A stretch of DNA of 35,829 nt from Prochlorothrix hollandica PCC 9006 = CALU 1027 (lineage in GTDB: Bacteria; Cyanobacteriota; Cyanobacteriia; Prochlorotrichales; Prochlorotrichaceae): NCBI RefSeq assembly GCF_000332315.1, contig NZ_KB235941.1, forward strand, positions 1,096,106-1,131,934, read 5' to 3'. Each line of letters begins with the position of its first letter. Position 1 is the stretch's first letter. Shown here in pieces: positions 1 through 21,653 of the stretch. The position numbers and the translations under genes are program-made. The notes below the pieces were generated by a model. It saw only the letters and a program-made list of their open reading frames with translations, was not told the origin of the DNA and made no database searches.

Positions 1-315
1 TACTGGATAAAACCCTCTCCCTTTACCCTCATGACCTTTCTGGCCCCCACGCTGACGCTCACTCTTGGCACGGCTCTCTTTCTTTTTCCCCCGAAATCCA
101 TCTGGGGACGGGGGCTTGGACGAATTCTCTGAGGTCTGAGACGACTGCTCTTCGAGACGGGCTAGACGCTCCTCTAGTCCCTTCAGGTGCTTTTTGGCTT
201 GCTCCAACTCTGCCAACAGCAGACTGACCGATGCTTTGACACAGGCCGGGGTCTGCTCCCAGGCTTCGATGGGCACAGGTATGGGGGGACAGATGGCTGG
301 CTCGGATTGACTCAT
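1..315 (-). CDS. IS66 family transposase, N-terminal part (runs off the left edge)
   Basis: Reading the minus strand from the ATG at 315 gives an open frame to the window edge, about 105 codons, beginning MSQSEPAICPPIPVPIEAWE. A glutamine/glutamate-rich helix with leucine spacing (LLLAELEQAKKHLKGLEERL) looks like the N-terminal coiled coil of IS66 TnpC. It is followed by SSQTSENSSKPPSPDGF, the serine-lysine-proline signature at this place in IS66 transposases. A basic stretch (SERQRGGQKGHEGKGRG) follows, as in family members with GGQ-GH motifs. The catalytic DDE domain would lie further left, outside the window. In the family the protein catalyses copy-in transposition of its element. The upstream flank carries the IS terminal sequence. 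Confidence 0.8.
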   Translation of the reverse strand, partial: MSQSEPAICPPIPVPIEAWEQTPACVKASVSLLLAELEQAKKHLKGLEERLARLEEQSSQTSENSSKPPSPDGFRGKKKESRAKSERQRGGQKGHEGKGRGFYPV

Positions 316-383
316 GCTTATGACTCTACACCCTACGGACTCCCCTTAAACCCCCTTTCTTCCGTCAACCCCTGAATAGTTAC
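1..383 (-). mobile_element. IS66-type insertion sequence, one end only (cut by the window edge)
   Basis: The left edge holds the 5' part of an IS66-like transposase on the minus strand, followed by about 70 bp that end in CCCCTGAATAGTTAC (369-383). Directly after this the reading frame of a methyltransferase resumes, so base 383 is the likely outer boundary. The same terminal motif recurs at 11082-11096. The other end of the element and the target-site duplication lie outside the window. Confidence 0.7.
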
Positions 384-1977
384 GATCCAACGTTGTGTTT
401 TGATGACGACAGATCCAGGCGATCTCGTTCTTGATCCCACCTGCGGTTCTGGCACCACAGCCTACGTCGCCGAACAATGGGGTCGCCGCTGGATTACGAT
501 CGACACCTCCCGCGTTGCCCTAGCCCTAGCCCGTGCCCGCATCATGGGTGCCCGCTACCCCTACTACCTGCTCAAAGACTCCCAGCCAGGGCAGCAAAAA
601 GAAGCAGAACTCACCCGCAAACCCGCCGCCGATGCGCCCACCTACGGCAACATTCGCCAGGGCTTTGTCTACGATCGCGTTCCCCATATCACCCTCAAGG
701 CGATCGCCAACAACACCGAAATCGACGTAATTTGGCAGCAATATCAGCCCCAGGTCGAGCAAGCCCTCGCAGAACTCAACACCGCCCTGGCTGGGCACAA
801 CCAACCCTACCCCGTCACCACCGGCGGCAGAGACGGCAAAAAGATCGACTTCACCGCCAGCGGCACCGTCACCCTGCCCTCCGGCGAAACTGCCCCCGCC
901 AACGCTTTGCTGGAATGGGAAGTGCCCCGCGAAGCGCCCAACCATTGGCCCGACAGCACCCAGGCTCCCTTAGCGGAATTTTGGCAAGGCCGCATCGCCC
1001 GACAGAAGGAGATCGATGCCTCGATCGCCGCCAAAGCCGACCAAGAATTTCTCTACGACAAACCCTACGAAGACAAAGGTATTGTCCGGGTCGCGGGTCC
1101 CTTCACTGTCGAAAGCCTCTCGCCCCACCGCGTCCTAGCCGTCGATCAAGACGACGAACTGATCGACCCCAACATCACCAACCCCGATCGCAGCAGCGAA
1201 GAAGCCGACTTCGCCAGCATCATCCTCGAAACCCTCAAAATCGCCGGAGTGCAGCAGGCCGACAAAAGCGATAAAATCACCTTTACCACCCTCACCGGCT
1301 GGCCCGGTAACTACATCTGCGCCGAAGGCCGCTACCTCGAAGGCGACAGCCAAACCGAAAAACGCGCCGGTATCTTCATCGGTCCCGAATTTGGCACCGT
1401 CTCCCGCCTCGATCTGGTCAATGCCGCCAAAGAAGCCGGAGATGCCGGGTTTGATGTGGTCATTGCCTGCGCCTTCAACTACGATGCCCATTCGTCAGAA
1501 TTCAAAAAGCTGGGCCGCATCCAAATCCTCAAAGCCCGCATGAATGCAGACCTGCACATGGCCGACACCCTCAAAAACACCGGAGCAGGCAACCTTTTCG
1601 TCATCTTCGGCGAACCCGACATCGACATTGACCCCGTAGACAACGGCCAGATTCAGGTCACCATCCACGGAGTCGATGTGTTCCACCCCCAGTCCGGCGA
1701 AGTGCGAGCCAGTGATACGGACGCGATCGCCTGCTGGTTCATCGACACCGACTACAATGAAGAGAGCTTCTTCGTCCGCCATGCCTACTTCCTCGGAGCC
1801 AATGACCCCTACAAATCCCTCAAAACCACCCTCAAAGCCGAAATCGACGAGGAAGCCTGGGCCACTCTCCACAGTGACCTATCCCGCCCCTTCGATAAGC
1901 CCACCTCAGGCCGGATTGCCGTCAAGGTGATCAACCACTTGGGGGATGAGGTCATGAAAGTTTTTAGTGTTTCCTAG
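384..1977 (+). pseudogene. Type III Mod-like adenine DNA methyltransferase, 5' part lost to an IS insertion
   Basis: The frame is open from the IS boundary to the TAG at 1975-1977, about 530 codons. It begins (V/T)IQRCVLMTTDPGD and runs straight into DPTCGSGTTAYVAEQW, the AdoMet-binding motif I (FxGxG type) of beta-class N6-adenine or N4-cytosine methylases. In that class the catalytic DPPY motif and much of the target-recognition region precede motif I, and both are missing here. The TTG at 400 and the ATG at 403 give apparent starts, but they lie inside the conserved stretch just before motif I, so they are internal codons and not real starts. The remaining C-terminal domain resembles that of Mod proteins found beside helicase-type restriction subunits. 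Without the catalytic motif it should be inactive. No restriction partner follows; the next gene, 63 bp on, is an AT-rich STAND NTPase. Confidence 0.8.
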
Positions 1978-2040: not shown

Positions 2041-5000
2041 ATGACAAAACCATTTAATGTTGAGTCAAGTGATATTAAGTCGCTGAATGATATACAACTG
2101 ACTCAACTCCTTAAGATTTTGCTACATGCAGAAGCACATGCTTTTGGGATTCCCCAAAACTCTGTAGAAGTTGCACTGAATATTATTACGGGAGATGGTG
2201 GAGAAGATGGTCGAATTTCTTGGAAAAATAGTAAAGAATCTACAGACTTCATTCCAAGTCGCAATACACTATTTCAAAACAAGGCGACAAATATGGGACC
2301 TAGCGAATATGGTAAAGAGTTAGTTACTAAACAAGGTGATATCAAAGAGCAAGTTGATAATGTTTTAAGTGCTGGTGGTAGCTATATTGTATTCACAACA
2401 CAAGAGCTAAATGGAAGTCAGAAATTAAAGCGTATTACGGCAATGCGCACTGTTTTCCAAAATAAAAATAAAGACTATGCATCAAGTTGTATTCTGAAAA
2501 TATACGATGCAAGTCAGATTTCCAGTTGGGTCAATTGTTATACTACAGCGATTGTCTCAGTTCTTCATTGGCTTGGCAAACCACTTGAAAGAGGCTTAAA
2601 AAGCTATAATCTCTGGAAAGAGGATCCAGCCTTAGAATTATTACCATTCTCTCATGTAAAAAGTCGTGAGAATTTTATAGATTCTTTGAGAGATAAATTA
2701 TTAAAACCTCAGTCATGTTGTAGGGTAGTAGGTTTGTCGGGACTAGGTAAAACACGACTTGCATTTGAGATATTTCGTGCAAATGACACTATCAAAAGCT
2801 TATTAGTATATGTTGATGCCAACCATATTCCTAAAATTGATGCACTAGTAGCTGACTGGATTAGTCTAGGCTATAGATCAATATTAGTTGTTGATAACTG
2901 TGATTATCAATTACATAACAGTCTAGTTCAAGAAGTTAGCAGAAATACTAGTAAAATCAGTTTGCTAAGTTTAGATTATGACTTTCAAGAAGTATTACGA
3001 CAAACTTTTATGATAAAACTAAATCCAATGACCGATGATGAAATAACTGATTTACTTAAGCCTAAGTATGCATCTAATTTACCTGACTTAGATCGAATAA
3101 CTTCTTTTGCTCAAGGTTTTCCACAAATAGCTGTATTACTAGCACAATCAAGACTAGACCAAGATCCAAGAACTGGAGAACTGACAGAAGACGATTTAGC
3201 TAATAAATTATTATGGAGTCGTAATCAACCAGAAAATACAGACTTTTTAAAGATTCTACAAGTATCTTCATTGTTTGATTCCTTTGGCGTGGAAGCTGAG
3301 GCTGAAGATCAACTGACTTATATTGCTCAAGTTTCTGGATTTGATTCTGATAAAGTTTATGAGTGTATTCAGATATTTGCAGAGCGTGGAATTATAGATA
3401 GACGTGGCCGACTTGCTCAGGTTGTTCCCAAGCCTCTGGCTATAAGATTAGCTGGTCAATGGTGGAGATCTACTAGACAGCAGAAACAGAAAGATCTGAT
3501 ATCTGAAATGCCACCGAGTATGGTTGAAAGCTTCTGTCGTCAAGTTGAAAAGATGAATTTTCATAGTGATGTTAAGTCCTTAACTCAGGAGCTTTGTGGG
3601 TACCAATCCCCTTTTGGCCAAGCGGAAGTGATTCTATCGAAGCAGGGTTCACGTCTCTTCCGCTCTTTCATAGTTGTAAACCCTGAATCCACTTCTGCTA
3701 CCTTGTCTAGAATACTTGAAGAGATGAATCTTGATCAGTTATTACAAATAGATCCTGATGTTAGAAGAAATTTAGTTTGGGGACTTGAAAGACTTTGTTT
3801 TCATGCTGAATTTTTCACCCCATCGGCATGGTGCTTACTCAAGCTAGCTGCTGCCGAAAACGAAGTTTGGACTAATAATGCGACAGGAATATTTATTCAA
3901 CTGTTTCGCGTCTTTCTGTCTGGGACTGAAGCAACTCCAGATACTCGCATTCAATTGTTAAAACAAGCACTAAACCTAAATCAAAAAGAAGTTGACTTGG
4001 TTATTATAAAAGCCTTGCATAATGCAATTAGTACAGAGGGATCTACTCGAACATGTGGATCTGAATATCAAGGAATAGGTGCTCCTCTTCAGGAGTGGAA
4101 ACCTCAAATTTGGCAGGATGTCTTTGATTACTGGCAAACCTGTTTTGATTTACTTATTAGCATGTTCCATCGAGAAAATGATCTCAAGTTAGAAATACTT
4201 GATTGTATTGGAGACTCTATTCGTGGACTTGTAAAGATCGGACGCATTGATACGCTTGATAGTGTAATAAAACAAGTTGTTGAACTCAATGGATATTATT
4301 GGCCTTCTGCACGTAATAATATCAAATCAACCCTGAGATATGATGCTGACAGTCTACCAGAAGAATCTATCCAAGCCCTATATAAATGGCTAGATATACT
4401 TAGCCTAAAAGATGTAGAATTAGAAGATAAGCTCAGGGCTATAGTTTCCAACCCCTATTGGGAATCTATTCAAGATGATCAAAATAACTATATTAATGTG
4501 GCTGCAAATAATGCTCAACAATTAGCATCTGAACTTACATCTAATCTAGAGTCTTTACTTCCTCTTTTACATTTGTTACTACACGGACAACAAAATCAAG
4601 CCTATACCTTTGGAAGACAGATTATTCTAGAGCTAGAAAATGAGAGTATCGGTCTTTTTACCATGACGGCTCTTCAGTCTTTTACTCAAATTGAGAATGC
4701 AAACTCAAGTCTAATTTTAGGAATATATCGAGGATTATATGAAAAATCTACAGATATTTGGCAAGAGTATCTGAATATTTTAATTGAAACAGAAGACTTA
4801 GTTGCCTTATATCCTCAATGTCTTTGTCAAGGTAGTATAAATAAAAATAATTTAGATCAATTAATTGACCTGATTCACAACAATAGTTTACCACTAGAGA
4901 GTCTAAACATACTAGGCTATGGAAGTGTTGTAAAGAATATCAATGCTGAAGTTTTTCAAGAATTTTGCTTGCAATTATTTGAAATAAATACTCAAGCATC

Positions 5001-5793
5001 CTGGCTCATCTTAAAGTTAATGTTCGCATATTGTTATCAAGATGATCTAGCACTCAAATCAATGTATGAGTCTGTCAAGATGATTGTTACAAGCGTCCCA
5101 CTACATGATCAACAAATACGAAATCTTCTTGATTTTCATGAATGGGACTATTTAACTAAGGAATTACTAAAAACATCTGATCAGGAACTAGTTGATAGGA
5201 TAGCCGATCAACTGATTGATGCTTGTAAGTATGGAATGAATTATTCTTATCTATGGGATTACTTTAAGCCCTTGCTTTTAATGCTAATGCGAGACTATGG
5301 CAGCATTTTATGGCCAAAATTTAATCTTGAGATTGCCAAGAGAGAAGGAAGTCAGGCTTATTGGTTACAAGATTTGTTTAAAAGAGAGATGGGTCTTGCG
5401 ACTCAAATGCCAAGTATATTATCTGCACTACCTGTTGAAGATGTCATTTCTTGGTGTCATCAACATCCTGACTTAGCCCCTTATTTTACTGCTAACTGTA
5501 TAGATGTTTATGAAAATAAAGATGGGAGTGTAGAAGCTTCAGATCTATGTGTTGCTCTCTTAAAAGATTTTGGAAAAGATGACAAAGTTTTAGCTGCATT
5601 AAGCTCTAATATGATATCTAGAGGGTGGGTTGGATCATTGGTGCCTTACCTCGAAACTGATAAAAAATTCCTCACGCCTCTCCTCAATCATGACATCAGT
5701 AATGTAAGACGATGGGCTAAGGATCAAATCTCTTATATCGAAGATCAGATTAAAAGAGAGTCTAATTTAGATGAAGAGCAAAGCCTCAGATAG
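2041..5793 (+). CDS. STAND-type NTPase with a PD-(D/E)XK-like N-terminus (Avs-like antiphage candidate)
   Basis: This is a 1250-residue protein in a clearly AT-rich gene, unlike its GC-rich neighbours. Residues 1-180 look like a restriction-endonuclease fold: a helix with E31, then GDGGEDGRI (51-59, candidate D52, E55 and D56) and LFQNKA (77-82, QxK). This spacing fits Mrr- or Cap4-like nucleases. A P-loop GLSGLGKT (231-238) and a Walker B ILVVDNCD (281-288) follow, with a winged-helix-like stretch near residues 400-480. The rest is a long helical region typical of repeat sensors. The layout of nuclease, STAND ATPase and repeat sensor is that of Avs-type defence proteins, which bind a phage protein, oligomerise and cut DNA. 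The start ATG has AAGGA eight bases upstream. Function is inferred from layout and motifs; I cannot assign it to a named Avs family. Confidence 0.7.
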   Translation: MTKPFNVESSDIKSLNDIQLTQLLKILLHAEAHAFGIPQNSVEVALNIITGDGGEDGRISWKNSKESTDFIPSRNTLFQNKATNMGPSEYGKELVTKQGDIKEQVDNVLSAGGSYIVFTTQELNGSQKLKRITAMRTVFQNKNKDYASSCILKIYDASQISSWVNCYTTAIVSVLHWLGKPLERGLKSYNLWKEDPALELLPFSHVKSRENFIDSLRDKLLKPQSCCRVVGLSGLGKTRLAFEIFRANDTIKSLLVYVDANHIPKIDALVADWISLGYRSILVVDNCDYQLHNSLVQEVSRNTSKISLLSLDYDFQEVLRQTFMIKLNPMTDDEITDLLKPKYASNLPDLDRITSFAQGFPQIAVLLAQSRLDQDPRTGELTEDDLANKLLWSRNQPENTDFLKILQVSSLFDSFGVEAEAEDQLTYIAQVSGFDSDKVYECIQIFAERGIIDRRGRLAQVVPKPLAIRLAGQWWRSTRQQKQKDLISEMPPSMVESFCRQVEKMNFHSDVKSLTQELCGYQSPFGQAEVILSKQGSRLFRSFIVVNPESTSATLSRILEEMNLDQLLQIDPDVRRNLVWGLERLCFHAEFFTPSAWCLLKLAAAENEVWTNNATGIFIQLFRVFLSGTEATPDTRIQLLKQALNLNQKEVDLVIIKALHNAISTEGSTRTCGSEYQGIGAPLQEWKPQIWQDVFDYWQTCFDLLISMFHRENDLKLEILDCIGDSIRGLVKIGRIDTLDSVIKQVVELNGYYWPSARNNIKSTLRYDADSLPEESIQALYKWLDILSLKDVELEDKLRAIVSNPYWESIQDDQNNYINVAANNAQQLASELTSNLESLLPLLHLLLHGQQNQAYTFGRQIILELENESIGLFTMTALQSFTQIENANSSLILGIYRGLYEKSTDIWQEYLNILIETEDLVALYPQCLCQGSINKNNLDQLIDLIHNNSLPLESLNILGYGSVVKNINAEVFQEFCLQLFEINTQASWLILKLMFAYCYQDDLALKSMYESVKMIVTSVPLHDQQIRNLLDFHEWDYLTKELLKTSDQELVDRIADQLIDACKYGMNYSYLWDYFKPLLLMLMRDYGSILWPKFNLEIAKREGSQAYWLQDLFKREMGLATQMPSILSALPVEDVISWCHQHPDLAPYFTANCIDVYENKDGSVEASDLCVALLKDFGKDDKVLAALSSNMISRGWVGSLVPYLETDKKFLTPLLNHDISNVRRWAKDQISYIEDQIKRESNLDEEQSLR

Positions 5794-5846: not shown

Positions 5847-7955
5847 ATGCAGTTTCGTATTGCCGACACATTCACTAGCAGCCTCGCTAACCTCACTGCC
5901 CAGGAACAGAAAGCTGTTAAAACCACCGCTTTTGATCTCCAGGTGGATGGTACAAGGCCAGGGCTGCGGTTTCACAAGCTGGAGAAGTATAAGGATCCTA
6001 ACTTCTGCTCCGTGAGCGTCAACATGGATCTGAGGCTGATCGTCCACAAAACCGACAACAGCCTTCTCCTTTGCTACGTTGGCCACCATGAACCCGCCTA
6101 TGCTTGGGCAGAGCGCCGCAAAATTGCCACCCACCCCACCACCGGAGCGGCCCAACTGGTAGAGGTGAGGGAAACCGTGGAAGAGGTTGTGGTTCAGCAG
6201 ACAGTGACCCGTAATCCGCTGCTGTTCGATCGAATGCCAGAGGCTGACTTGCTCAGCTATGGGGTCCCCCTGGAATGGGTGCCCGATGTTTTCCAAGCCA
6301 CTGAAGATACCCTACTGGATATCGCTGAACACCTACCCCAGGAAGCAGCCGAAGCCCTCTTAGCATTGGCCACCGGGGGCAAACCTCCGATCGCCCTCAT
6401 CCTGGAACCCAGCCTAGATCCCTTCAAACACCCCGACGCACAGCGGCGATTTCGCACCATGGGCAGTCGTACTGACCTCCAAATTGCCCTGGACTACCCC
6501 TGGGAAAAGTGGACTGTTTTCCTGCACCCCACCCAACGGGATTTTGTGGAGCGCCCATACAGCGGACCCGCCCGCATCTCTGGCTCAGCGGGCACCGGCA
6601 AAACGATCGTGGCACTCCACCGGGCCGTTCACTTAGCCCGCCTCCATCCCCAAGCCCAAATCCTGATCACCACCTTTTCCCCCGCCCTGGCTAATGCCCT
6701 GAAGGTGAAGCTAAGCCGGTTGTTAGGCATTCCCCTACCCGAACAGATCAGTAATCCAGACAATCCCCTACTCCCGCAATTGGGTGAATTTATCACAGAG
6801 AACGATCCCCCCCTGGCTGGACGGATTAAGGTCTATGCTATCCAGGACTTAGCCCGCCAAATCTATGCCCAATCCCATGGAGAGCCAACCCTAGCCACAG
6901 ATCAGCAACTGCGATCGCTCCTGATCAACACCCTGGAATCCAGCCAGTTCAAACCAGAGTTCTTGTGGTCAGAGTGGAAGGAAGTTGTGGATCCTTGGTT
7001 CTTGCGAACCTGGGAGGACTATCGAGACGTGAAGCGCTTGGGCCGTAAAACCCGGCTCTCAGCAAGCAAACGGGAAATACTCTGGTCTATCTTTCAACAG
7101 GTTTGGCAGAAGCTGGGAGAGCAGGGTCTAACGACAGAATCCCAACTATTCCACGACGCGATCGCCAGCATCCAGAATAATTCGCCCTTCGATTACGCGA
7201 TCGCCGATGAAGCCCAGGACTTAGACGTTCCCCAACTCAGGTTTTTAGCGGCTTTGGGCCGCCAACACAAAGACGGTCTATTTTTCACCGGAGACTTAGG
7301 CCAGCGCATCTTTCAGCAACCCTTTTCTTGGAAATCTGTGGGGGTCAGCATTCAAGGCCGATCGCACACCCTGAACATCAACTACCGCACCTCTCACCAG
7401 ATCCGACAGAAAGCCGATATCTTACTCCCCGGCTATCTGAGTGATGTAGACGGGAACCAAGAAGACCGACGCAACACCATCTCCCTGTTCACTGGTCCCA
7501 TGCCCACCATCAAGGTGCTGGAAGATGCCGAAGAAGAGCAGGAAATGGTAGCCCGTTGGCTCCAACAGCAGCTACAGGGGGGAGTGAACCCGGAAGAGAT
7601 TGGAGTTTTTGTGCGGTCTACTGCGGAACTGCCTAGGGCGGCTCGGGCCGTCAAAGCAGCGGGGTCCACTCCCTCAATCTTGGATCAGCGGATGATGCCT
7701 GAACCAGACGCGATCTCTGTCTCTACCATGCACCTGGCCAAGGGGCTGGAGTTTCGGTCTGTAGCTGTGATGGCTTGCGATTATGAGGTGATCCCTTTGG
7801 CATCTCGCATGGAGGCGATCGCTGACGAATCCGACCTAGAAGAGGTCTACAACACAGAACGCCACCTGCTTTATGTGGCCTGCACCAGGGCACGGGATGA
7901 ACTGTTGATCACGGGAGTGGATCCCATTTCTGAGTTTGTGGAGGATTTATTGTGA
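5847..7955 (+). CDS. RelE/ParE-like domain fused to a UvrD/Rep-type superfamily 1 helicase
   Basis: The protein has 702 residues. Residues 1-95 resemble a RelE/ParE toxin fold: a helical start with LTAQEQKAV, then RPGLRFHKLEKYKDPNFCSV, DLRLIVHK and LLLCYVGHHEPAYAWAERR. A linker of about 140 residues leads to an SF1A helicase. It has GSAGTGKTIVALHRA (motif I, 246-253 for the P-loop), DYAIADEAQD (motif II, 449-458), a GDLGQRIFQQPFSW motif III region, NINYRTSHQIR (motif IV), VSTMHLAKGLEF (motif V) and HLLYVACTRARDEL (motif VI). All helicase motifs look intact. No UvrD-type 2B insertion of normal size is evident, so the enzyme is compact. No antitoxin-sized gene adjoins it, so the RelE-like part may serve as an RNA- or ribosome-binding module or be restrained within the protein. 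It lies 53 bp after the STAND gene but is GC-rich, so it is probably of different origin. Confidence 0.8.
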   Translation: MQFRIADTFTSSLANLTAQEQKAVKTTAFDLQVDGTRPGLRFHKLEKYKDPNFCSVSVNMDLRLIVHKTDNSLLLCYVGHHEPAYAWAERRKIATHPTTGAAQLVEVRETVEEVVVQQTVTRNPLLFDRMPEADLLSYGVPLEWVPDVFQATEDTLLDIAEHLPQEAAEALLALATGGKPPIALILEPSLDPFKHPDAQRRFRTMGSRTDLQIALDYPWEKWTVFLHPTQRDFVERPYSGPARISGSAGTGKTIVALHRAVHLARLHPQAQILITTFSPALANALKVKLSRLLGIPLPEQISNPDNPLLPQLGEFITENDPPLAGRIKVYAIQDLARQIYAQSHGEPTLATDQQLRSLLINTLESSQFKPEFLWSEWKEVVDPWFLRTWEDYRDVKRLGRKTRLSASKREILWSIFQQVWQKLGEQGLTTESQLFHDAIASIQNNSPFDYAIADEAQDLDVPQLRFLAALGRQHKDGLFFTGDLGQRIFQQPFSWKSVGVSIQGRSHTLNINYRTSHQIRQKADILLPGYLSDVDGNQEDRRNTISLFTGPMPTIKVLEDAEEEQEMVARWLQQQLQGGVNPEEIGVFVRSTAELPRAARAVKAAGSTPSILDQRMMPEPDAISVSTMHLAKGLEFRSVAVMACDYEVIPLASRMEAIADESDLEEVYNTERHLLYVACTRARDELLITGVDPISEFVEDLL

Positions 7956-7976: not shown

Positions 7977-8216
7977 CTGACTGACACAAGTGCTAGAAAC
8001 CTAGTCACCATTCGGGATCAAAACGCCATCCTCAAATCAGCTTCCGGCTTTCTCAAAATCCTCTATCCCCATTTAAGCCTGACCCCCGACGACTACGATC
8101 GCGACTGCCTCCAACCGGCTCGACAACTGCGCCAATTCATCCGCAACTCCCTCTATCACCTGGATGAAGAGTTTCGCCAATATGGTCTCTCGATCGGGGT
8201 GGAAGCCAAGCCATGA
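7977..8216 (+). pseudogene. 3' remnant of a BrxL-like (Lon-related) BREX protease gene
   Basis: An open frame without a start codon runs from just after an in-frame TGA (7974-7976) to TGA 8214-8216. It encodes RNLVTIRDQNAILKSASGF, then LKILYPHLSLTPDDYDRD, then LQPARQLRQFIRNSLYHLDE. This resembles the far C-terminal helical segment of BrxL proteins, where I recall an RDxxAxxKTxSGLxKLLYPxG motif followed by a region ending in RRRVKEQL. Only about 75 codons of a protein of several hundred remain, so the AAA+ and Lon domains are gone. The stop overlaps the ATG of the cysteine desulfurase gene (ATGA), as in a coupled operon. The family assignment rests on recalled motif similarity and needs a profile search. 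Confidence 0.5.
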
Positions 8217-9364
8217 TTTATTTGGATTACAACGCCAGCACCCCCGTCGATCGCCGCGTTGCCGATGTTATGTACCACAGCCTCACCACCACCGTTGGCA
8301 ACCCCAGCAGCGTTGATCACGCATGGGGCGATCGGGCTACCGCCACCATCGACAGCGCCCGCCACCACCTAGCCCAGCTCCTCAACACCGACCCCCGCAC
8401 CCTTGTCTTCACCTCCGGAGCCACCGAAAGCCTCAACCTGGCCATCCATGGCACCGTTCAACACCTCACCCGCCAGGGAATCCGCCCCCGCCTCGCCGTC
8501 ACTGCCCTGGAACATAAGGCAGTATTGGAACCCTGCCAGACCTTGGCCCAAGCTGACCTCGTAGATCTGGAGATATTGCCAGTTAATGGCCAAGGCCAAT
8601 TGGATTTAAGTCAACTAGAGCAGTGCTGTCACCAAGGGCCACACCTCCTCTGCACCATGGCCGCCAACAACGAAATTGGCACCCTCAACCCCATGGCTGA
8701 GATTGCCGCGATCGCCCGCCGTTACCAAATCCCCCTGCTGTGCGATGCCACCCAAGCCCTAGGCAAAATCCCCCTCGATCTCGCCGCCTGGGGCGGTACG
8801 GTGCTCCTAGCCTGCTCTGCCCACAAACTCTATGGACCCCAGGGCTGTGGTGCCCTCGTTGTGCCCCGCACCTATGCCTTAGGCTCCCTCTTCCAAGGGG
8901 GTAACCAACAGCGGGGATTACGCCCTGGTACGCTGAATTTGCCCGGTATCGTCGGATTTGGCGAAGCCTGCCGCCTCCGTAGCCTGGAAATGGCCACCGA
9001 TGAAGCCCGCATTGCAACCCTGCGGGACCGTCTGACAGCCCAGCTCCAGGCCCAGATTCCCGATCTCGTCATCCACGGCGATCGCACCCCCCGCCTCGCC
9101 GGAACCCTCAGCCTCTCCATTCCCGGCATCCCCTCCACGGCCCTCCTGGCCCGCCTCCGCCACCAGTTAGCCTGCTCCACCGGCTCTGCCTGCACTTCCG
9201 GTAGTCCAGCCCCGTCCCATGTCCTCCGTGCCCTGGGCCTCTCCGCTGTCCACCTCAACAGCGCCCTCCGCCTCAGCCTGGGCAAGTTCACCACCATCCC
9301 AGAACTAGATCACGCCGCAACCCTACTAATCCAAACCATTACGCACATTAAAGCCCTGAATTAA
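8213..9364 (+). CDS. Cysteine desulfurase (IscS/NifS/DndA-like)
   Basis: This is a complete 383-residue, class V aminotransferase-fold, PLP-dependent enzyme that removes sulfur from L-cysteine as a protein-bound persulfide. The N-terminus IYLDYNASTPVD, FTSGATESLN, NNEIGT, LLCDATQALGK and the PLP lysine in SAHKLYGPQG (K205) are all present. The active-site cysteine is C327 in STGSACTSG, in the long-loop arrangement of IscS/NifS group I. The C-terminus is of normal length. The gene lies between a BrxL-like remnant, with which its start overlaps by 4 bp, and a DUF1156 methylase remnant. That setting suggests a defence-linked desulfurase such as DndA, which supplies sulfur for DNA phosphorothioation, but no dndBCDE or ssp genes are in the window. 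General Fe-S or tRNA thiolation supply is equally possible. Confidence 0.9.
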   Translation: MIYLDYNASTPVDRRVADVMYHSLTTTVGNPSSVDHAWGDRATATIDSARHHLAQLLNTDPRTLVFTSGATESLNLAIHGTVQHLTRQGIRPRLAVTALEHKAVLEPCQTLAQADLVDLEILPVNGQGQLDLSQLEQCCHQGPHLLCTMAANNEIGTLNPMAEIAAIARRYQIPLLCDATQALGKIPLDLAAWGGTVLLACSAHKLYGPQGCGALVVPRTYALGSLFQGGNQQRGLRPGTLNLPGIVGFGEACRLRSLEMATDEARIATLRDRLTAQLQAQIPDLVIHGDRTPRLAGTLSLSIPGIPSTALLARLRHQLACSTGSACTSGSPAPSHVLRALGLSAVHLNSALRLSLGKFTTIPELDHAATLLIQTITHIKALN

Positions 9365-9762: not shown

Positions 9763-9796
9763 CCCCTCCGTGATAAAGCTAAACTGCCCCAAGCCT

Positions 9797-10369
9797 ATGG
9801 TTACTTTGACCTTGCCTCCTGCCCTACGGTTGAGCGATCGAACCTTCGAGGAACTGTGCCACCATAACCCCACCCTACGCCTTGAACGCACCGCCCAAGG
9901 AGACCTGATCGCCATGACCCCTGCCGGAAGCGAAACCGGATCCCGCAATGCCGATCTTCTGGGTCAATTGTGGTACTGGAACCACCAAACTAAACGCGGC
10001 ATCGTTTTCGACTCCTCCGCCGGATTCACCCTGCCTAACGGAGCCATTCGCTCCCCCGACGCAGCCTGGATCGAAAAAAGCCGCTGGGCAGCTATCCCCC
10101 TCGAACAACGCCAGAAATTTGCCCCCATTTGCCCCGATTTTGTCCTAGAACTCAAATCCCCTAGCGACGATCTGCCCCCCCTCCAAGGCAAACTCGAAGA
10201 ATATATCGCCAACGGGGCACAACTGGGCTGGCTTATTGACCCTAGTCTCAAAACCGTTCACTGCTACCGCCCAAAGCATCCCCCCGACCTCCTCCAAAAC
10301 TCCAAAAGCCTCTCCGGCAGTCCCCTCCTCCCAAACTTCACCCTCGACCTTGCCCTCATCTGGCCCTAG
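9797..10369 (+). CDS. Uma2 family endonuclease-like protein (DUF820)
   Basis: The protein has 190 residues from ATG 9797. A GTG at 9770 would add nine residues, but Uma2 proteins commonly begin close to the hydrophobic TLTLPPALRLSD stretch, so the ATG is preferred. Typical Uma2 features are present: FEELCHHNPTLRLERTAQGDLI, AMTPAGSETGSRN, an IRSPDAAWI motif with the metal-binding Asp, and CPDFVLELKSPSD with the E-x-K of a PD-(D/E)XK core, then KLEEYIANGAQLGWLIDP. Uma2 proteins are numerous in cyanobacteria and are predicted nucleases of unknown role, often linked to mobile DNA. The length is normal and the core residues are intact. Confidence 0.88.
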   Translation: MVTLTLPPALRLSDRTFEELCHHNPTLRLERTAQGDLIAMTPAGSETGSRNADLLGQLWYWNHQTKRGIVFDSSAGFTLPNGAIRSPDAAWIEKSRWAAIPLEQRQKFAPICPDFVLELKSPSDDLPPLQGKLEEYIANGAQLGWLIDPSLKTVHCYRPKHPPDLLQNSKSLSGSPLLPNFTLDLALIWP

Positions 10370-11548: not shown

Positions 11549-13687
11549 TCAAACGGGGGTGCCTTGGTGCCAGCGTTGGAGCCAGGTGGTGCTGAGGTGC
11601 CGTAGGCGCTGGCGATCGGCGGTGTTCAGACCCTGGGGATCAAAACGGTAGCGGTTATGCAAATCCAAAATCGGTTGCAGGGATTGGAGGTGGGGACTGG
11701 CATCGGGGAGAGACTGGAGGCGATCGATCCAGTGGCCCAACGTCTCCGAGGGTTTGCGGGCCAAATCAGCCTGGGCCAAAACCTGCTCAATGGTATATAG
11801 CTCCGAATCCAAACCGGGCCAGTCATCGGGGGGCGGGGCGATCGTTGCCTTCGGGTTCACCGCTAGCCGTTGCACCTGTTTTTGGAAATCCAACTGCCGC
11901 AACAGAATCACCACCAAGGGAATCATCAACACCCACCAATAGTCACGCACATTAATCTGTTTCAGTTGTCCCCACAGCAGCCCCCAGCGAAAGCCCGCAA
12001 ACGACAGCCAGTCCCCCACAAAGGCCCAGGGGGGAGCCACTCGGTTTTCCGCCTCGATCCACTCCCCCGGTGTGGTGTCCAAGGTTTGCCAAGCCCCATT
12101 GATATAGGCCAAACTCCAGGCATGGGCGTGGCGAGTGCGCACTAAAAACTGTTGCTCCAGGGGGCTGAATTCATGGACCGAAAAGCCAATGGCATAGCGG
12201 GAAGGAATGCCCGCCGCCCGCAACAGCAACGTCGTGGCAGTGGCGAAGTATTCACAATGACCACTGCGGGTTTCTAACAAAAAGCTAGAGAGGGGGGTGA
12301 GATTGCCTTGAGTTGCTTTCAAATCTAGGGAATACTGAAAATTTTGCTGGAAATACTGGGTTAGGAGATCGGGAACATCCTGGGACTGTTGCTCAGTGAG
12401 GTGCAACTGGGCCACCACCGCCTCTAACACATCCCGCTCCCCAGGGGGTAACCCTAAGTCTGCCTCGCTGGGGGCTGCGTCATCATTGCGGCGGGGGTCA
12501 AACACCACACCATAGACCAGGGATCCCCCTGACCCCTCCACCCGCACCGTGCCATAGGGGTTGCGCTCCACGGTCTTGACCTGCAACGGATCCAACAGCA
12601 CCGGGCCGGGGGGTAACTTCAGTAAGCCTTTGCCCTCCCGCAGGTTGCCCGCAATGGTCAGACGGTTGGGGCTTTGGGCCAGGGTGACCGGATCGACGCT
12701 GGGATCCAGCAGCCATTGGCCGGAACCGGTGGACTCCGGGGGGTTGCTGGAAATCTCGCTGCTGGAAATCTTGCTGCTGGATATATCGCTGCCGGGATCG
12801 CCGCTACTGGTATTTCCAGGCTGCACTGTGGCAAAATCTGCCTCCGTGGCCACCCAGAGGGGGGATTGGTACCGGTTATAGGTAGCTTCTCGCAGGAGCT
12901 TGGGCACCCGTGCCCGATCGGCGGCGCTGACCCGAAAAGCAATGGCGTTGGACTGCTTCAGGTTCCCCAGTTCCCCAATGGCCGTATCCCGCTGGTAGGG
13001 ATCGGCATCTTGGCGGTAGTAGTCACTGATCCAGTTAATGACCTGCTGTTCAAATGCCCTGTGGATGCGGTTCACCGCCAAGGATCCCCCAAAGCCCAAG
13101 GTGGCGGCCAGCACCATCAACAGGAGCCAATAGCCACCACCCCTGCGCCGCGATCGCCCCGGCCACAACATGCCCATGACCAAGGCCACCATACCCAGAT
13201 AAAACCCATAACCTGGGGTATTGGCGGCACTGGCGGCGATCAGGCAGAGACCAAAGTAGCCATAGCGTAAATCCAGGGCTAGGTCTGCTTCCGCCGAGGT
13301 GCTGAGGTTGCCCGTGCTGGGGAACGGAACCCCCACCGCAGCGGGCTGTTCCCCCGACAGGAAGGGGAAAAAGACGAGAATGGAGATGCGATCGCGGTTG
13401 GAATAGAGTTGGGTGGTCAGTAATAATAGAAAGAAAATCGGTTGCAGTCGGATGAAAAGATAACCGGTTTCCAAATTGCGGGAGGTAATGAAAAAGTACA
13501 CCCCCACAATCAGAAAGAGCATGATGCAAAAGTTAAAAATATTCTTAAAATCGTCGTCTCCAAAATCCCAGCGGGAGGGCCACCAGGGGGCTGCTTCCAC
13601 CACTAGGGCAAAGGGAATGGCGAAGATCCACAGTCCCGTTTGCCATCCCCAAAATAAAAGGGTTAAACCTAAAATAAATCGCGGCAT
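11549..13687 (-). CDS. Membrane transglutaminase-like protein (TgpA family, DUF3488/DUF4129 type)
   Basis: The protein has 712 residues. The N-terminus has several membrane segments (LGLTLLFWGWQTGLWIFAIP, NFCIMLFLIVGVYFFI, a stretch near LFLLLLTT, and two more before residue 200). A periplasmic region follows, then a transglutaminase core: Cys in SGHCEYFATATTLLLRAAG (about residue 478), His in RHAHAWSLAY (about 520) and Asp in LDTTPGEW (about 536). A last membrane helix (YWWVLMIPLVVILL) precedes a cytoplasmic DUF4129-like tail. All three catalytic residues are present. The gene lies 121 bp downstream of a DUF58 gene on the same strand, the usual partner in MoxR-DUF58-TgpA operons; no MoxR ATPase is in the window. 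A 15-bp tandem repeat inside the gene encodes a serine-rich SSSxIS run. Confidence 0.88.
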   Translation of the reverse strand: MPRFILGLTLLFWGWQTGLWIFAIPFALVVEAAPWWPSRWDFGDDDFKNIFNFCIMLFLIVGVYFFITSRNLETGYLFIRLQPIFFLLLLTTQLYSNRDRISILVFFPFLSGEQPAAVGVPFPSTGNLSTSAEADLALDLRYGYFGLCLIAASAANTPGYGFYLGMVALVMGMLWPGRSRRRGGGYWLLLMVLAATLGFGGSLAVNRIHRAFEQQVINWISDYYRQDADPYQRDTAIGELGNLKQSNAIAFRVSAADRARVPKLLREATYNRYQSPLWVATEADFATVQPGNTSSGDPGSDISSSKISSSEISSNPPESTGSGQWLLDPSVDPVTLAQSPNRLTIAGNLREGKGLLKLPPGPVLLDPLQVKTVERNPYGTVRVEGSGGSLVYGVVFDPRRNDDAAPSEADLGLPPGERDVLEAVVAQLHLTEQQSQDVPDLLTQYFQQNFQYSLDLKATQGNLTPLSSFLLETRSGHCEYFATATTLLLRAAGIPSRYAIGFSVHEFSPLEQQFLVRTRHAHAWSLAYINGAWQTLDTTPGEWIEAENRVAPPWAFVGDWLSFAGFRWGLLWGQLKQINVRDYWWVLMIPLVVILLRQLDFQKQVQRLAVNPKATIAPPPDDWPGLDSELYTIEQVLAQADLARKPSETLGHWIDRLQSLPDASPHLQSLQPILDLHNRYRFDPQGLNTADRQRLRHLSTTWLQRWHQGTPV

Positions 13688-13808
13688 TGGCTTGATCCCA
13701 GGCTAGCAACGGAGGGCAACAGAGGTTTGCTCTGGATTGGGCGGGGAGACCCGGCCCCTACCAGGTTGGGGCAGAGGTAACAGAACCACTCACTGAAACC
13801 GCCCTGGA

Positions 13809-15161
13809 CTAGAGGGCCAGGAGGGTGGGGGCAATGTTATCCAAGGGTACCACCTGGAATCGGGTGGTGGGTGCTGTGATCACCCTGGTGTCGAAGTCCG
13901 CCGCCGTTTGTCCCGCCGCCGCCACCACCAGGACTAAGGTGGGGATCCGCAACGCCCCCAACTGCTGGACTAAGCCCTGGCGATCGTCGTCCCACTGGAG
14001 AAAAATGCAAATGCAACCACTGAGCAGATCCGATCGCTCCACCACCGAGGGCACCAGGGAACTAAAGGGTTTATCGCCACAGGCCACCACCGAGGCCAAA
14101 ATTTCCAGCATCTGATCCGTATGGCCCAGCCCCCGGCCAGCGGTGAAGCAGTAGGCTTCCAATCCCACAAACATTAAATCCAATAGGGATTCCTGGGTTT
14201 GGAAACTACAGGCAAAGGAGGCGGCGAGGGCGATCGCTTCCTCCAGGGTTTGACTGTAGGCTTCGGCCTGAAAGGTATCGAGAATCAGGGCATGGCGCAC
14301 AAAAAATTCATCTTGATCTTCCCGCACCACCGGTTTATCCAGTTTGGCCCAACTTTTCCAGTGAATCTTGCGCAGGGGATCACCGGGGCGGTAGTCCCGC
14401 AGGGCCATAAATTCGTCGGATTCCCCCACGGAGGACGCTAAGGCTACCCCCCCCGACTGGTAGCGCCGTCCCCCCGCCAGTTGCACCAGGGGCAAGGGGT
14501 AACGGTGGGGCAAAATCCAGAGGGATTGGGCCAGGGGCAGGTGTTGGCAGCCATTGAACAGGCCAAAGAGATCGGGGCGCATCAGGGTTGCTCCCGTTAA
14601 ATGCACTGCTCCCCGGCTGTAGGGACGCAGGGTCAGCATCACCTCCACCTGGCTGCGGGGGGGGATGGGGGGCACGGCAACCCGTTGGGTGGTGGCCCGT
14701 TGATTGCGGCGAATCAGCCACAGCCAGCGGTAGTAGCCGAGGGATCGATCGAAGCGGTTGCGCTGTTCTTCCCCTGGTTCTGGGGTATTCCGCAGTTCCC
14801 GGTAACTGGGGCGGGGGTCGGCGAAGGTTTCCCGCAACCAGAGACCCCGCTGCCAGTGGGCGGTGTGGTTGGTGAGGGTGACTCGGTAACTGAGGGGGAC
14901 CCCAGCGGTGCCGAAGCGGGGCAGGCTGCGGCTGAGGCTGAGGCGATCGCGGAACCGTATCCCCTGGGCTACGGCCAGAATCAGCATCGAACCCAGGAAG
15001 GTGAAAATTTGGTAAGTCAGGGATTGAGTGCTATCTAACCCCAACCCTCCCACCAGGGCAAAGCCCGCCACCACTGCGACTCCCCCAGGGGTCACCCGGC
15101 GAGACCGCCATTGGTCGGCGCTATAGATCAGGCGAAAGGCTTTGTAACGCAGGGGGTTCAT
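13809..15161 (-). CDS. DUF58 domain protein
   Basis: The protein has 450 residues from ATG 15161. Two hydrophobic helices near the start (VAVVAGFALVGGLGLDS and IFTFLGSMLILAVAQGI) anchor it. The DUF58 signature is present near residue 255: FMALRDYRPGDPLRKIHWKS, followed by VVREDQDEFFVRHALILDTF, which begins a von Willebrand A-like fold. The C-terminal part matches that fold (LDLMFVGLEAYCF, IPTLVLVVAAAGQ). DUF58 proteins are usually encoded with a MoxR AAA+ ATPase and a TgpA-type transglutaminase and are thought to act in assembly or maturation at the membrane. Here the TgpA-like gene follows on the same strand, so the two probably form an operon. Confidence 0.88.
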   Translation of the reverse strand: MNPLRYKAFRLIYSADQWRSRRVTPGGVAVVAGFALVGGLGLDSTQSLTYQIFTFLGSMLILAVAQGIRFRDRLSLSRSLPRFGTAGVPLSYRVTLTNHTAHWQRGLWLRETFADPRPSYRELRNTPEPGEEQRNRFDRSLGYYRWLWLIRRNQRATTQRVAVPPIPPRSQVEVMLTLRPYSRGAVHLTGATLMRPDLFGLFNGCQHLPLAQSLWILPHRYPLPLVQLAGGRRYQSGGVALASSVGESDEFMALRDYRPGDPLRKIHWKSWAKLDKPVVREDQDEFFVRHALILDTFQAEAYSQTLEEAIALAASFACSFQTQESLLDLMFVGLEAYCFTAGRGLGHTDQMLEILASVVACGDKPFSSLVPSVVERSDLLSGCICIFLQWDDDRQGLVQQLGALRIPTLVLVVAAAGQTAADFDTRVITAPTTRFQVVPLDNIAPTLLAL

Positions 15162-15246: not shown

Positions 15247-15600
15247 GATCCCCGGTTTCTTTTGGGGGAAAGCCAGGGTTTAGCGAGAAAAGGGACAGAA
15301 ACCGGGAATCTGTGTTCCTGAGATCGATCGGCGGGGGGGCCAAGATTCCCGGTTTCTCTGGCAGGATTTGTGAGATAATTGGCTTCGGTTGAGAAGAAAC
15401 CGGGAATCTAGGGAGAAATCGAGGATCCCCGGTTTCTTTTGGGGGGAAAGCCAGGGTTTAGCGGGAAAAAGGACAGAAACCGGGGATCTGTGTTCCTGGA
15501 ACCGATCGGCGAGGGGCCGAGATTCCCGGTTTCTCTGGCAGGATTTGTGAGATAATTGGCTTCGGTTGAGAAGAAACCGGGAATCTGGGGAGAAAACCGG
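15247..15600. repeat. Two tandem copies of a 177-bp repeat built on AGAAACCGGGGATC
   Basis: Copies begin at 15247 and 15424 with GATCCCCGGTTTCTTTTGGG and agree almost throughout, including GGACAGAAACCGGG(A/G)ATCTG, GATTCCCGGTTTCTCTGGCA and GGATTTGTGAGATAATTGGC. Within each copy the GGTTTCT and AGAAACC blocks face each other, giving several possible hairpins. Short frames across it encode repeated peptides but are shadows. A related cluster lies at 28153-28500. The repeat fills the space between the DUF58 and kinase genes. Confidence 0.85.
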
Positions 15601-15615
15601 GGGTGGGGGGTGATT

Positions 15616-15643
15616 TTTCAAAAAATTTTTCGCGCTTCGCGCG
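15616..15643 (-). terminator. Possible terminator or hairpin after the kinase-FGE gene
   Basis: On the minus strand, about 80 bases after the stop of the kinase gene, CGCGC-GAA-GCGCG forms a 5-bp GC stem (15631-15643), followed by AAAAATTTTTT. The short stem and interposed A run make it a modest terminator. It could equally be the structured element found downstream of DGR variable regions. The bases between it and the stop codon are AT-rich and show nothing else. Confidence 0.35.
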
Positions 15644-15722
15644 GGGAGAAGAGAGTAAAGATATATGAGTATATAGTGATAAAGAGAAAGAGTGTAAAGG
15701 GATATGAAGTCCTGGGGGAAAA

Positions 15723-15833
15723 CTACTCCAGAACCACACGAAAACCGTTGAAGTAGTTCCGGTTAACGCGCAGATGCCTGTCCCGGTCTGCCGAGCGAGT
15801 GTTCCTAGCGTTGAAGCTCCAGGAGCCACCCCG
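15723..15833 (-). other. Candidate DGR variable region at the 3' end of the kinase-FGE gene
   Basis: The last 36 codons encode RGGSWSFNARNTRSADRDRH followed by LRVNRNYFNGFRVVLE. The positions that vary in known FGE-type DGR targets are here agc, ttc, aac, aac, gac, gac, aac, aac, tac, ttc and aac. Each can be derived from an AAC codon by changes at adenines only, as expected from adenine-specific mutagenic retrohoming. The gene ends just after the conserved GFRVV block, as in many DGR targets. No reverse transcriptase, Avd gene or template repeat is in the window, so this would be a distant target. The pattern may also arise in an ordinary FGE domain with C-ending codons. Confidence 0.4.
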
Positions 15834-17897
15834 CAGCACACGATTAGTACCCTCACGATCGTCGGGTAGTACATTTGTTTTAGATTGTGTCCACTCAATA
15901 CTCCCATCCTGTTTCAGGGCTTCCGGCTTGGCTCCATAGCTCGCGTGCCACTCGTCCAAGCACCATTCCCGCACATTGCCGTGCATATCGTACAAACCCC
16001 AGGAATTAGCCGGAAATTGACCTACAGGGGTTGTCTGTTGCCGATGTTCCCCCTCAGGAGCGTTGCCATAGGGGTAATTGCCGTTATAGTTCACTAAATC
16101 TGGGGTGATGGTTTCCCCGAAGGAGAAGGGGGTTTGGGTTCCAGCGCGGCAGGCGTATTCCCATTCGGCTTCCGTGGGCAGGCGGTAATTGCGCCCGGTA
16201 CGATCGCTTAGCCGCTGGCAAAATTCCACTGCATCATCCCAACTCACGTCAATCACCGGTTTATTGGGATCCACAAATTTACTCTCGGAGTTTGTGGCGG
16301 GGTTGGTTCCCATCATGGCTTGATACTGGGCTTGGGTGATTTCATACTGTCCCATCCAAAACTCACGGGGGAAGTTCACCCGGTGCTGGGGGCCTTCATC
16401 AGAATCGCGCTGAACCTCATCATCCGGCGAACCCATCAGAAAATCCCCCGCCGGAATTTGCACCAAAGGCAGCAACACCCCGCCCCCCAAATCCTCCAGC
16501 CACCGGGTCACCGTTACAGACTCCCGCCGTCCCCCGTTGCCCAAAGAATCCAGCCCCGTCACCACATCCACCGCCACCACTTCCGACCTCAAACCCGCCA
16601 CAGCCCCCTCCGGAGACGGTTCCGGGAACGGTTCCGCTGGCGGGGGTGGCTCTGGGGCTGGGATATCCTCTGGAATCGCTTCTGGGGAAGGAGACCCATC
16701 CCCTGGTGCGGGATCTTCAGTCACCGTCCCCGGATTATCAAATAACCGCGACAGCAACACCCCCCCCAAAGTCACAACCCCCAACCCAACAAAAGTGCGT
16801 CGGTTCAGCAACTTAATCTGAGCAGAAGACTTGGGGCGCGGCGGCGCTACGGGAGGCCGGGGGTTCCTGGGGGCTGGAGGCTGGGGAGGACGAGGAGAAG
16901 GTGAGGCGGGGACTGTCCTGGGGGTAGGAGTTGGTGGAGGACTCGGCACCGTGGGAATTGGGGTTGGAGGTCTGGGAGGACGAACCGGCGGCGGCGCAAC
17001 AGACGACCCACCGGGCAAAACCCTTAACCAATCCTCCATGTGCTGGGGGCGCTGGTGGGTTTCCACCTGCAAACCCCACAGGATTGCATCACACAGGGAC
17101 GAACTCAGCCCCCCGTTATACTGCTGCGGCGGCTCCAGCAAATCGCGCCCATGCTTCAATATCGACAACTCCCGATTGCTCCCCTCCGGTGGCACCCGCC
17201 CCGTCACCATGCAATACAAAGTCGCCGCTAGGGCATAAATATCCGTATAGGCTCCCCGCTTGGCCTGGAGATCGTACTGCTCCGGGGGCGCAAATCCCGG
17301 CGTATAAAATTGGGTATGGGTTTGGATCACATCCTGGCGAAACTCCCGCGCAATGCCAAAATCAATCAGCACCGCCTCCTGCTGCCCTGAAACCCCATTG
17401 CGCCGCAGCAAAATATTATCGGGCTTAATATCCCGATGGACCAACCCTTTGCCATGGGCTACGGTTAAGGCTTCCCCCACCTGCCGGATATAAATCAGGG
17501 CTTCCTGCTCGGAAAGGCGCTGTTGGGGCTGTTTTTCCAAATAAACAGCCAAATCTTCCCCCTCCACATAATCCAGGGGCATACATTGCAAACTCAGGGT
17601 TTGCCCCCGTTGCTGGGGATGGGGCACAGTTTCCTGGAACAGTTCCCCCACCTTGACCACATGGGGATGGGTACATTTAGCAAGCTTGATCGCCTCATTA
17701 ATAAAGTCCTGCTGGAACTCCCCAAAGTCCCCCCGCTTTTGAATCTCATCCCGCAGGGTTTTGATCACGATTTTTTCGTCTTGGCGATCGCCCTGGCAAA
17801 TTTCCGCCAGGTAGGTAATGCCGAAGCCCCCTTCCCCCAAGACCCTCAAAATCTTGTACTTGCCCTTATTAACCCGTTGCCCCGCTGCCCAAGCCAT
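15723..17897 (-). CDS. Ser/Thr protein kinase fused to a formylglycine-generating-enzyme-like (FGE-sulfatase) domain
   Basis: The protein has 724 residues. Residues 12-285 are a Hanks-type kinase: GEGGFG (21-26), lysine in VIKTL (K46), HRDIKPDN (154-161, catalytic D156) and DFG (179-181), with APPEQY in the activation segment. A proline-rich linker (about 290-355) leads to one membrane helix (RRTFVGLGVVTLGGVLLSRL, about 365-388). A second acidic, proline-rich spacer precedes an FGE-sulfatase domain of C-type-lectin fold (about 475-724): IPAGDFLMGSP, YEITQAQYQAMMGTNP, PVIDVSWDDAVEFC, YRLPTEAEWEYACRAG, MHGNVREWCLDEW, LRGGSW and a terminal GFRVVLE. The kinase is probably cytoplasmic with the lectin-like domain outside. 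The ending matches cyanobacterial kinase-FGE fusions, some of which are targets of diversity-generating retroelements. Confidence 0.92.
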   Translation of the reverse strand: MAWAAGQRVNKGKYKILRVLGEGGFGITYLAEICQGDRQDEKIVIKTLRDEIQKRGDFGEFQQDFINEAIKLAKCTHPHVVKVGELFQETVPHPQQRGQTLSLQCMPLDYVEGEDLAVYLEKQPQQRLSEQEALIYIRQVGEALTVAHGKGLVHRDIKPDNILLRRNGVSGQQEAVLIDFGIAREFRQDVIQTHTQFYTPGFAPPEQYDLQAKRGAYTDIYALAATLYCMVTGRVPPEGSNRELSILKHGRDLLEPPQQYNGGLSSSLCDAILWGLQVETHQRPQHMEDWLRVLPGGSSVAPPPVRPPRPPTPIPTVPSPPPTPTPRTVPASPSPRPPQPPAPRNPRPPVAPPRPKSSAQIKLLNRRTFVGLGVVTLGGVLLSRLFDNPGTVTEDPAPGDGSPSPEAIPEDIPAPEPPPPAEPFPEPSPEGAVAGLRSEVVAVDVVTGLDSLGNGGRRESVTVTRWLEDLGGGVLLPLVQIPAGDFLMGSPDDEVQRDSDEGPQHRVNFPREFWMGQYEITQAQYQAMMGTNPATNSESKFVDPNKPVIDVSWDDAVEFCQRLSDRTGRNYRLPTEAEWEYACRAGTQTPFSFGETITPDLVNYNGNYPYGNAPEGEHRQQTTPVGQFPANSWGLYDMHGNVREWCLDEWHASYGAKPEALKQDGSIEWTQSKTNVLPDDREGTNRVLRGGSWSFNARNTRSADRDRHLRVNRNYFNGFRVVLE

Positions 17898-21100: not shown

Positions 21101-21653
21101 GCAGTCGGGGCAAATGGAGACCATTGGCTTTGATCTCTACATGGAAATGCTGGAGGAGGCGGTGCAGGAAATCCGGGGCCAGAAGATTCCTACGGTGACG
21201 GAAACCCAAATTGATCTCAACCTGACGGCCTTTATCCCTGGGGATTACATTCCCGATGCCGATGAGAAAATGAGTGCTTACCGATCGGTGGCAACGGCCA
21301 AGACCAAGCAGGAATTGGTGCGCATTGCGGCAGATTGGGCCGATCGCTATGGGGCTATTCCTGGCCCAGCCCAGCAAATGTTTAAGATTATGGAACTGAA
21401 ACAGTTGGCTAAAACCGTAGGTTTTGCCCGTATTAAGCCGGAGGGTCAGCATGTGGTGCTGGAAACCCCCATGGAGGAACCCGCCTGGACCCTCTTGAAG
21501 GAAACCCTGGATGGGAAACTCCATCAGCGTTTTGTCTACACCACTGGCAAGGTAACAGTGCGGGGGTTGGGGGTGTTTAAGGTGCAACAGCAGGTGGAGT
21601 CCCTGATTGAGTGGCTGGGGACGATGCAGAAAGCAGTCGCCAGGGATGATTGA
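18117..21653 (+). CDS. mfd: Transcription-repair coupling factor Mfd
   Basis: The protein has 1178 residues, normal for Mfd. It removes RNA polymerase stalled at DNA lesions and recruits UvrA to start nucleotide excision repair. The N-terminal UvrB-like region (about 1-400) includes [18 protein letters not shown] and [20 protein letters not shown]. The RNA-polymerase-interacting CarD-like domain follows ([20 protein letters not shown]). The RecG-like translocase has [14 protein letters not shown] (P-loop 661-668), DEEQRFGV (762-765 for DEEQ), [13 protein letters not shown] and [12 protein letters not shown]-type motifs (here [14 protein letters not shown]), with [10 protein letters not shown] as motif VI. 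The C-terminal autoinhibitory domain is intact ([20 protein letters not shown]). The gene has its own upstream region, divergent from the kinase-FGE gene. Confidence 0.98.

Follow-up and report, generated by a model that had tools for sequence, protein, structure and literature searches.

The gene at positions 2041 to 5793 of the Prochlorothrix hollandica DNA analysed here (the window, a stretch of 35,829 nucleotides) raises the question of which family its protein belongs to and whether it acts against phages. The original prediction, made from the letters alone, had described an AT-rich Avs-type candidate with a nuclease-like N-terminus, a P-loop, a Walker B motif and a long helical C-terminal region. 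The open reading frame is real and intact: in 200 shuffles of the segment, the longest open frame was 179 aa compared to the actual 1250 aa. Its GC content is 35.7% (GC3 24.7%) against 54-62% in 15 other measured genes of the window, so its description as the only clearly AT-rich gene was correct. E31, GDGGEDGRI, QNK, the P-loop and Walker B were all found at the residues first assigned to them. Promoter-like and terminator-like sites were no more frequent than in shuffled sequence, and no insertion-marking direct repeats were found to flank it.

Table 1. Features of the window discussed in the text, with window positions and the evidence for each.
Feature	Position	Strand	Evidence
IS66-like ORF fragment of the mod-splitting element	1..315	-	DUF6444, E 2e-14
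Type III methyltransferase gene (mod), 3' part	400..1977	+	MTase_III PDLC03632; upstream neighbour, outside the system
PD-λ-4_A-like STAND nuclease gene	2041..5793	+	1250 aa, ATG start, intact; PDLC03991 match; homologue-like length
Predicted PD-(D/E)XK nuclease domain, residues 1-180	2041..2580	+	AF2 model and structural matches
E31 (in HAEA, 29-32), acidic residue in helix 1	2131..2133	+	Conserved in 98% of 65 homologues
DGGEDGRI, residues 52-59 (D52, D56)	2194..2217	+	D52, G54, E55, D56, R58 invariant, 65 homologues
QNK (QxK) predicted catalytic motif, residues 79-81 (in FQNKA, 78-82)	2275..2283	+	Q79, K81 invariant, 65 homologues
STAND NTPase module, about residues 187-513	2599..3579	+	VIA-align to CED-4, Dark/Apaf-1, plant NLRs
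P-loop GLSGLGKTR, residues 231-239 (K237)	2731..2757	+	G231, G234, G236, K237, R239 invariant, 12 diverse homologues
Walker B ILVVDNC, residues 281-287	2881..2901	+	D285, C287 invariant, 12 diverse homologues
GxP-type motif GFPQIA, residues 359-364	3115..3132	+	G359, P361, A364 invariant, 7 homologues
C-terminal helical solenoid, putative sensor, residues 516-1250	3586..5790	+	AF2 model and Foldseek
RelE-like and UvrD-like helicase fusion	5847..7955	+	Pfam UvrD domains; 54 bases downstream of the STAND gene
NifS/DndA-type cysteine desulfurase	8213-9364	+	Near the island; NifS and DndA profiles score similarly, both below cut-offs
Uma2-family putative endonuclease	9770-10369	+	Close to the island
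Ser/Thr kinase fused to FGE-sulfatase (formylglycine-generating-like) domain	15723-17897	-	PglW-like match
Mfd helicase	18117-21653		Identified as Mfd

Sequence searches of Pfam, NCBIfam and the PDB with the window protein returned no family: no chain of the PDB matched, and the only other hits were NB-ARC at E 0.11 and part of FxSxx_TPR around its P-loop. The PADLOC profile PDLC03991 (PD-Lambda-4_A) matched it from end to end, with residues 5-1247 aligned to profile positions 4-1278 of 1283 (E 1.2e-82, 276 bits), and this full-length match names the family that the original prediction had left open in stating that no named Avs family could be assigned. In E. coli EC71 (L107), protein A scores 2524 bits with the same profile and is followed directly by its partner B at 544 bits. 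The window protein aligns to the EC71 protein A over 818 residues with 23% identity (E 4e-46), and the DGG-x-D, QxK, P-loop and Walker B motifs are in register between the two. Judged by sequence, the window protein and PD-λ-4 protein A (Vassallo et al. 2022) are diverged homologues that share the same three modules in the same order, whereas the low identity to the E. coli protein, the place in a separate clade and the lack of a B gene set the window protein apart. Previously, the PD-λ systems were obtained as products of a phage-survival selection in E. coli (PMC9519451), and a review places PD-λ-4 under P-loop NTPase only and not among the PD-(D/E)XK systems (PMC10952713).

The N-terminal domain was modelled with AF2 (residues 1-200, 65 homologues) at a pLDDT of 90.5 and a pTM of 0.85. 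The model contains the α-β-β-β-α-β core of PD-(D/E)XK nucleases with acidic residues and a (D/E/Q)xK motif on the third strand, arranged as helix 17-34 (E31), strand 56-60 (D56), strand 75-81 (Q79/K81), strand 114-119, a helix and strand 151-155. In addition to the motif residues listed in Table 1, Y115 and W163 are invariant in the 65 homologues. The best rows of a VIA-align search were mostly PD-(D/E)XK nucleases, including FokI (Z 7.4), Can2, MspJI, EcoT38I, AspBHI, Nt.BspD6I and Cap4, and residues 2-175 of Avs4 matched at Z 6.1; all of these scores are below Z 8, a range where common arrangements can also score. Because each match is below this level, the nuclease assignment draws on the consistency of the list, the invariance of D52, D56, Q79 and K81 and the 98% conservation of E31. 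A plain Foldseek search with the domain gave nothing at E <= 0.001, and its list was full of EF-Tu chains that did not superpose. Mrr-type and Cap4 nucleases share the PD-(D/E)XK fold and the D...QxK arrangement with the window protein, but their profile similarity is weak: the DGG-x-DG-x-I and QxK motifs align to Mrr in order by hhalign at a probability of 9%, and Cap4_nuclease matched one of 65 members at E 0.026. Taken with the model, the fold matches and the invariance bear out the nuclease-like N-terminus and the catalytic residues chosen for it beforehand, and residues 1-180 are predicted to form a PD-(D/E)XK nuclease that would cleave DNA.

The remainder of the protein (residues 186-1250) was modelled at a pLDDT of 91.7 and a pTM of 0.80. 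Its NTPase module superposes on CED-4 at Z 17.4 (301 residues, rmsd 4.3) and also matches NRC4, RPP1, Dark and Apaf-1 at Z 13-17. Foldseek matches to residues 186-1250 comprise HEAT proteins and Avs3 (second match, E 1.6e-6), and for long-repeat solenoids such matches show arrangement and not function. Thus the P-loop, Walker B and long helical region proposed earlier are borne out by motifs, models and structural matches. All three parts of the STAND/NLR layout were found, namely an NB-ARC-like NTPase with P-loop, Walker B and GxP-type motifs, an N-terminal effector and C-terminal superstructure-forming repeats. The window protein shares the STAND NTPase fold with CED-4, Apaf-1, Dark and the NB-ARC of plant NLRs (Z 13-17 over about 260-300 residues), but carries a predicted nuclease in place of their CARD, CC or TIR effectors and a HEAT-like solenoid in place of their LRR or WD40 repeats.

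The same layout of N-terminal nuclease, STAND NTPase and C-terminal helical sensor is found in Avs1-Avs4, and the structural matches follow it, with Avs4 resembling the N-terminus and Avs3 residues 186-1250. The window protein is shorter than the chains of Avs3 (about 2000 aa) and Avs4 (1534 aa). The PADLOC library contains Avs models, and the matches at E <= 1 included no model with an Avs name. The designation as a candidate new Avs-type protein therefore holds for the nuclease-STAND-helical architecture, and hence as a mechanism, but not for the family, which is the PD-λ-4 A superfamily.

The gene had also been placed amid the wreckage of restriction and BREX-type genes, and this holds for restriction in that a type III restriction-modification locus lies directly upstream. 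The res gene (ResIII) of this locus has an uninterrupted frame of 1021 aa, whereas mod is in two frames, the halves of which (13306-14715 and 15506-17083 in the numbering of L105) flank an element (window positions 1-399 and L105:14715-15506) that carries the IS66-like (DUF6444) ORF and is partly masked in the assembly. With the res frame uninterrupted and mod split, the locus should restrict DNA without modifying it, provided that res is active. No BREX genes were found within the window; the PglW-like match is the kinase-FGE-sulfatase fusion and was rejected as BREX, and neither this gene, nor Mfd, nor an SNF2 helicase was accepted as defence wreckage. The RelE-UvrD fusion that follows immediately was rejected as a candidate partner because homologues do not have it repeatedly beside them; a search of 291 other genomes of the phylum found no relative of the fusion at E <= 1e-100.

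PD-λ-4 is defined by two genes, and the window has a full-length A without an adjacent B. The B profile (PDLC03992) found nothing in the whole window assembly or in 15 other homologue-bearing genomes or plasmids, and was present in E. coli EC71; one of the 15, an Enterobacter mori plasmid, carries an A gene scoring 1764 bits yet lacks B. Around about 76 homologues, 443 ORFs were compared at distances of up to 3 kb, and none recurred at more than 7 loci. The commonest flanking gene encodes a Fic protein, and the second-commonest cluster, which lies on the opposite strand and partly overlaps the gene start, is probably not a gene. Since B is absent and no flanking gene recurs, the window protein looks like a one-gene system, and from these gene contents it is classed as a one-gene variant of PD-λ-4 A; its clade is a separate one. 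Models and conservation also point to single-gene action for most of the PD-λ-4 A family, in bacteria as well as archaea. In a control E. coli genome, a PD-λ-4 B homologue was present and an A match absent, so B may also have a role independent of A.

The search for homologues returned 80 loci from bacterial and archaeal genomes, and 43 plasmid records match. At 52-59% identity, relatives are spread over at least five phyla. In the tree, the window protein falls into a group of 10 that has full support and is separate from the E. coli PD-λ-4 clade (itself at SH-aLRT 100), together with proteins from Pseudomonadota, Myxococcota, Acidobacteriota, Chlorobiota, Margulisiibacteriota and a Pseudanabaena plasmid. 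Within its own phylum, a match was found in only 6 of 386 genomes. This patchy presence, the mixed phyla and the AT-rich composition indicate that the gene was probably acquired horizontally. Phage records searched with the window protein gave no match; among viral contigs, a single-sequence scan found none and an alignment-based scan found two distant matches. In a homologue on an Enterobacter roggenkampii plasmid (L021:4059-8180), a serine-esterase (DUF676) α/β domain replaces the nuclease, which fits an effector that can be exchanged, and the annotation of a Lelliottia plasmid match (H24) likewise names an alpha/beta hydrolase. Three further homologues (L051, L059 and L081) have an MqsA-antitoxin-like helix-turn-helix fused ahead of the nuclease domain, a fusion which suggests self-regulated expression.

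Several homologues adjoin restriction or Dnd genes, in line with the defence context first proposed: type III mod and res (L075), a type IV REase (L028), HsdS and HsdR (L032), and a Dnd-associated methyltransferase with DUF4007 (L005). The neighbours checked for five others (L023, L026, L029, L036 and L037) had no defence match; all neighbours in this check were chosen by hand, and the share with defence genes has no background rate beside it. Thus the PD-(D/E)XK fold is present in the N-terminal model and homologues do occur within defence contexts, the two points on which the original prediction had agreed to be judged.

From these data, the window protein is likely to act against phages on its own, as an NLR/Avs-like member of the PD-λ-4 A superfamily. 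In Avs1-4, the nuclease effectors cut the DNA of phage and host once terminase or portal has been recognised (PMC12931631). By analogy, the C-terminal helical solenoid would recognise a phage component, and ATP binding by the STAND module would drive oligomerisation. The oligomer would juxtapose the N-terminal PD-(D/E)XK domains (E31/D52/D56/Q79/K81) and switch on DNA cleavage, which would stop the phage and probably also the cell. Every step of this action, from the sensing of a ligand through oligomerisation to DNA cleavage and the death of the cell, is inferred from Avs1-4. Counted against this explanation are the 23% identity to E. coli A, the absence of B, the nuclease matches below Z 8 and the Mrr probability of 9%.

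Another explanation is an ATP-dependent restriction-type nuclease, the solenoid of which would read modified or foreign DNA directly and clear it while the cell survives. The type I, III and IV restriction genes and Dnd genes adjoining homologues are compatible with such an enzyme, as are the modification-dependent MspJI and AspBHI among the structural matches and the plasmid location of several homologues. However, the NTPase belongs with the STAND modules of NLRs and Apaf and not with those of helicases or translocases, and the esterase-like domain standing for the nuclease in one homologue is a better fit to a signal-triggered effector switch; we regard this explanation as unlikely.

It is still less probable that the protein is a STAND regulatory or cell-death switch hitch-hiking in mobile islands without a role in phage defence, since the homologous E. 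coli PD-λ-4 came out of a phage-survival screen (PMC9519451), the distribution is patchy and crosses phyla, and the nuclease motif is retained. What speaks for such a switch is that many homologues, the five named above among them, have no recognised defence neighbour and that some stand beside metabolic genes (L006). The foreign base composition and the broken mod gene next door would also be expected of a decayed, non-functional remnant, but the unbroken 1250-aa frame, a length as in the homologues and the retention of every invariant residue make this reading very improbable.

The standalone anti-phage receptor of the PD-λ-4 A superfamily thus remains the preferred explanation. The wider proposal, on which we are evenly balanced, is that this superfamily represents a hitherto undescribed class of NLR-like immune receptors, encoded by one gene in bacteria and archaea, which would be independent of B, exchange their N-terminal effectors (nuclease or α/β-hydrolase) and move freely between phyla, and within which the clade of the window protein had not previously been tied to phage defence by experiment. 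Read from models and conservation as an Avs/NLR-like STAND receptor that is armed with a nuclease, PD-λ-4 A would turn from an unexplained screen hit into a protein with a testable mechanism.
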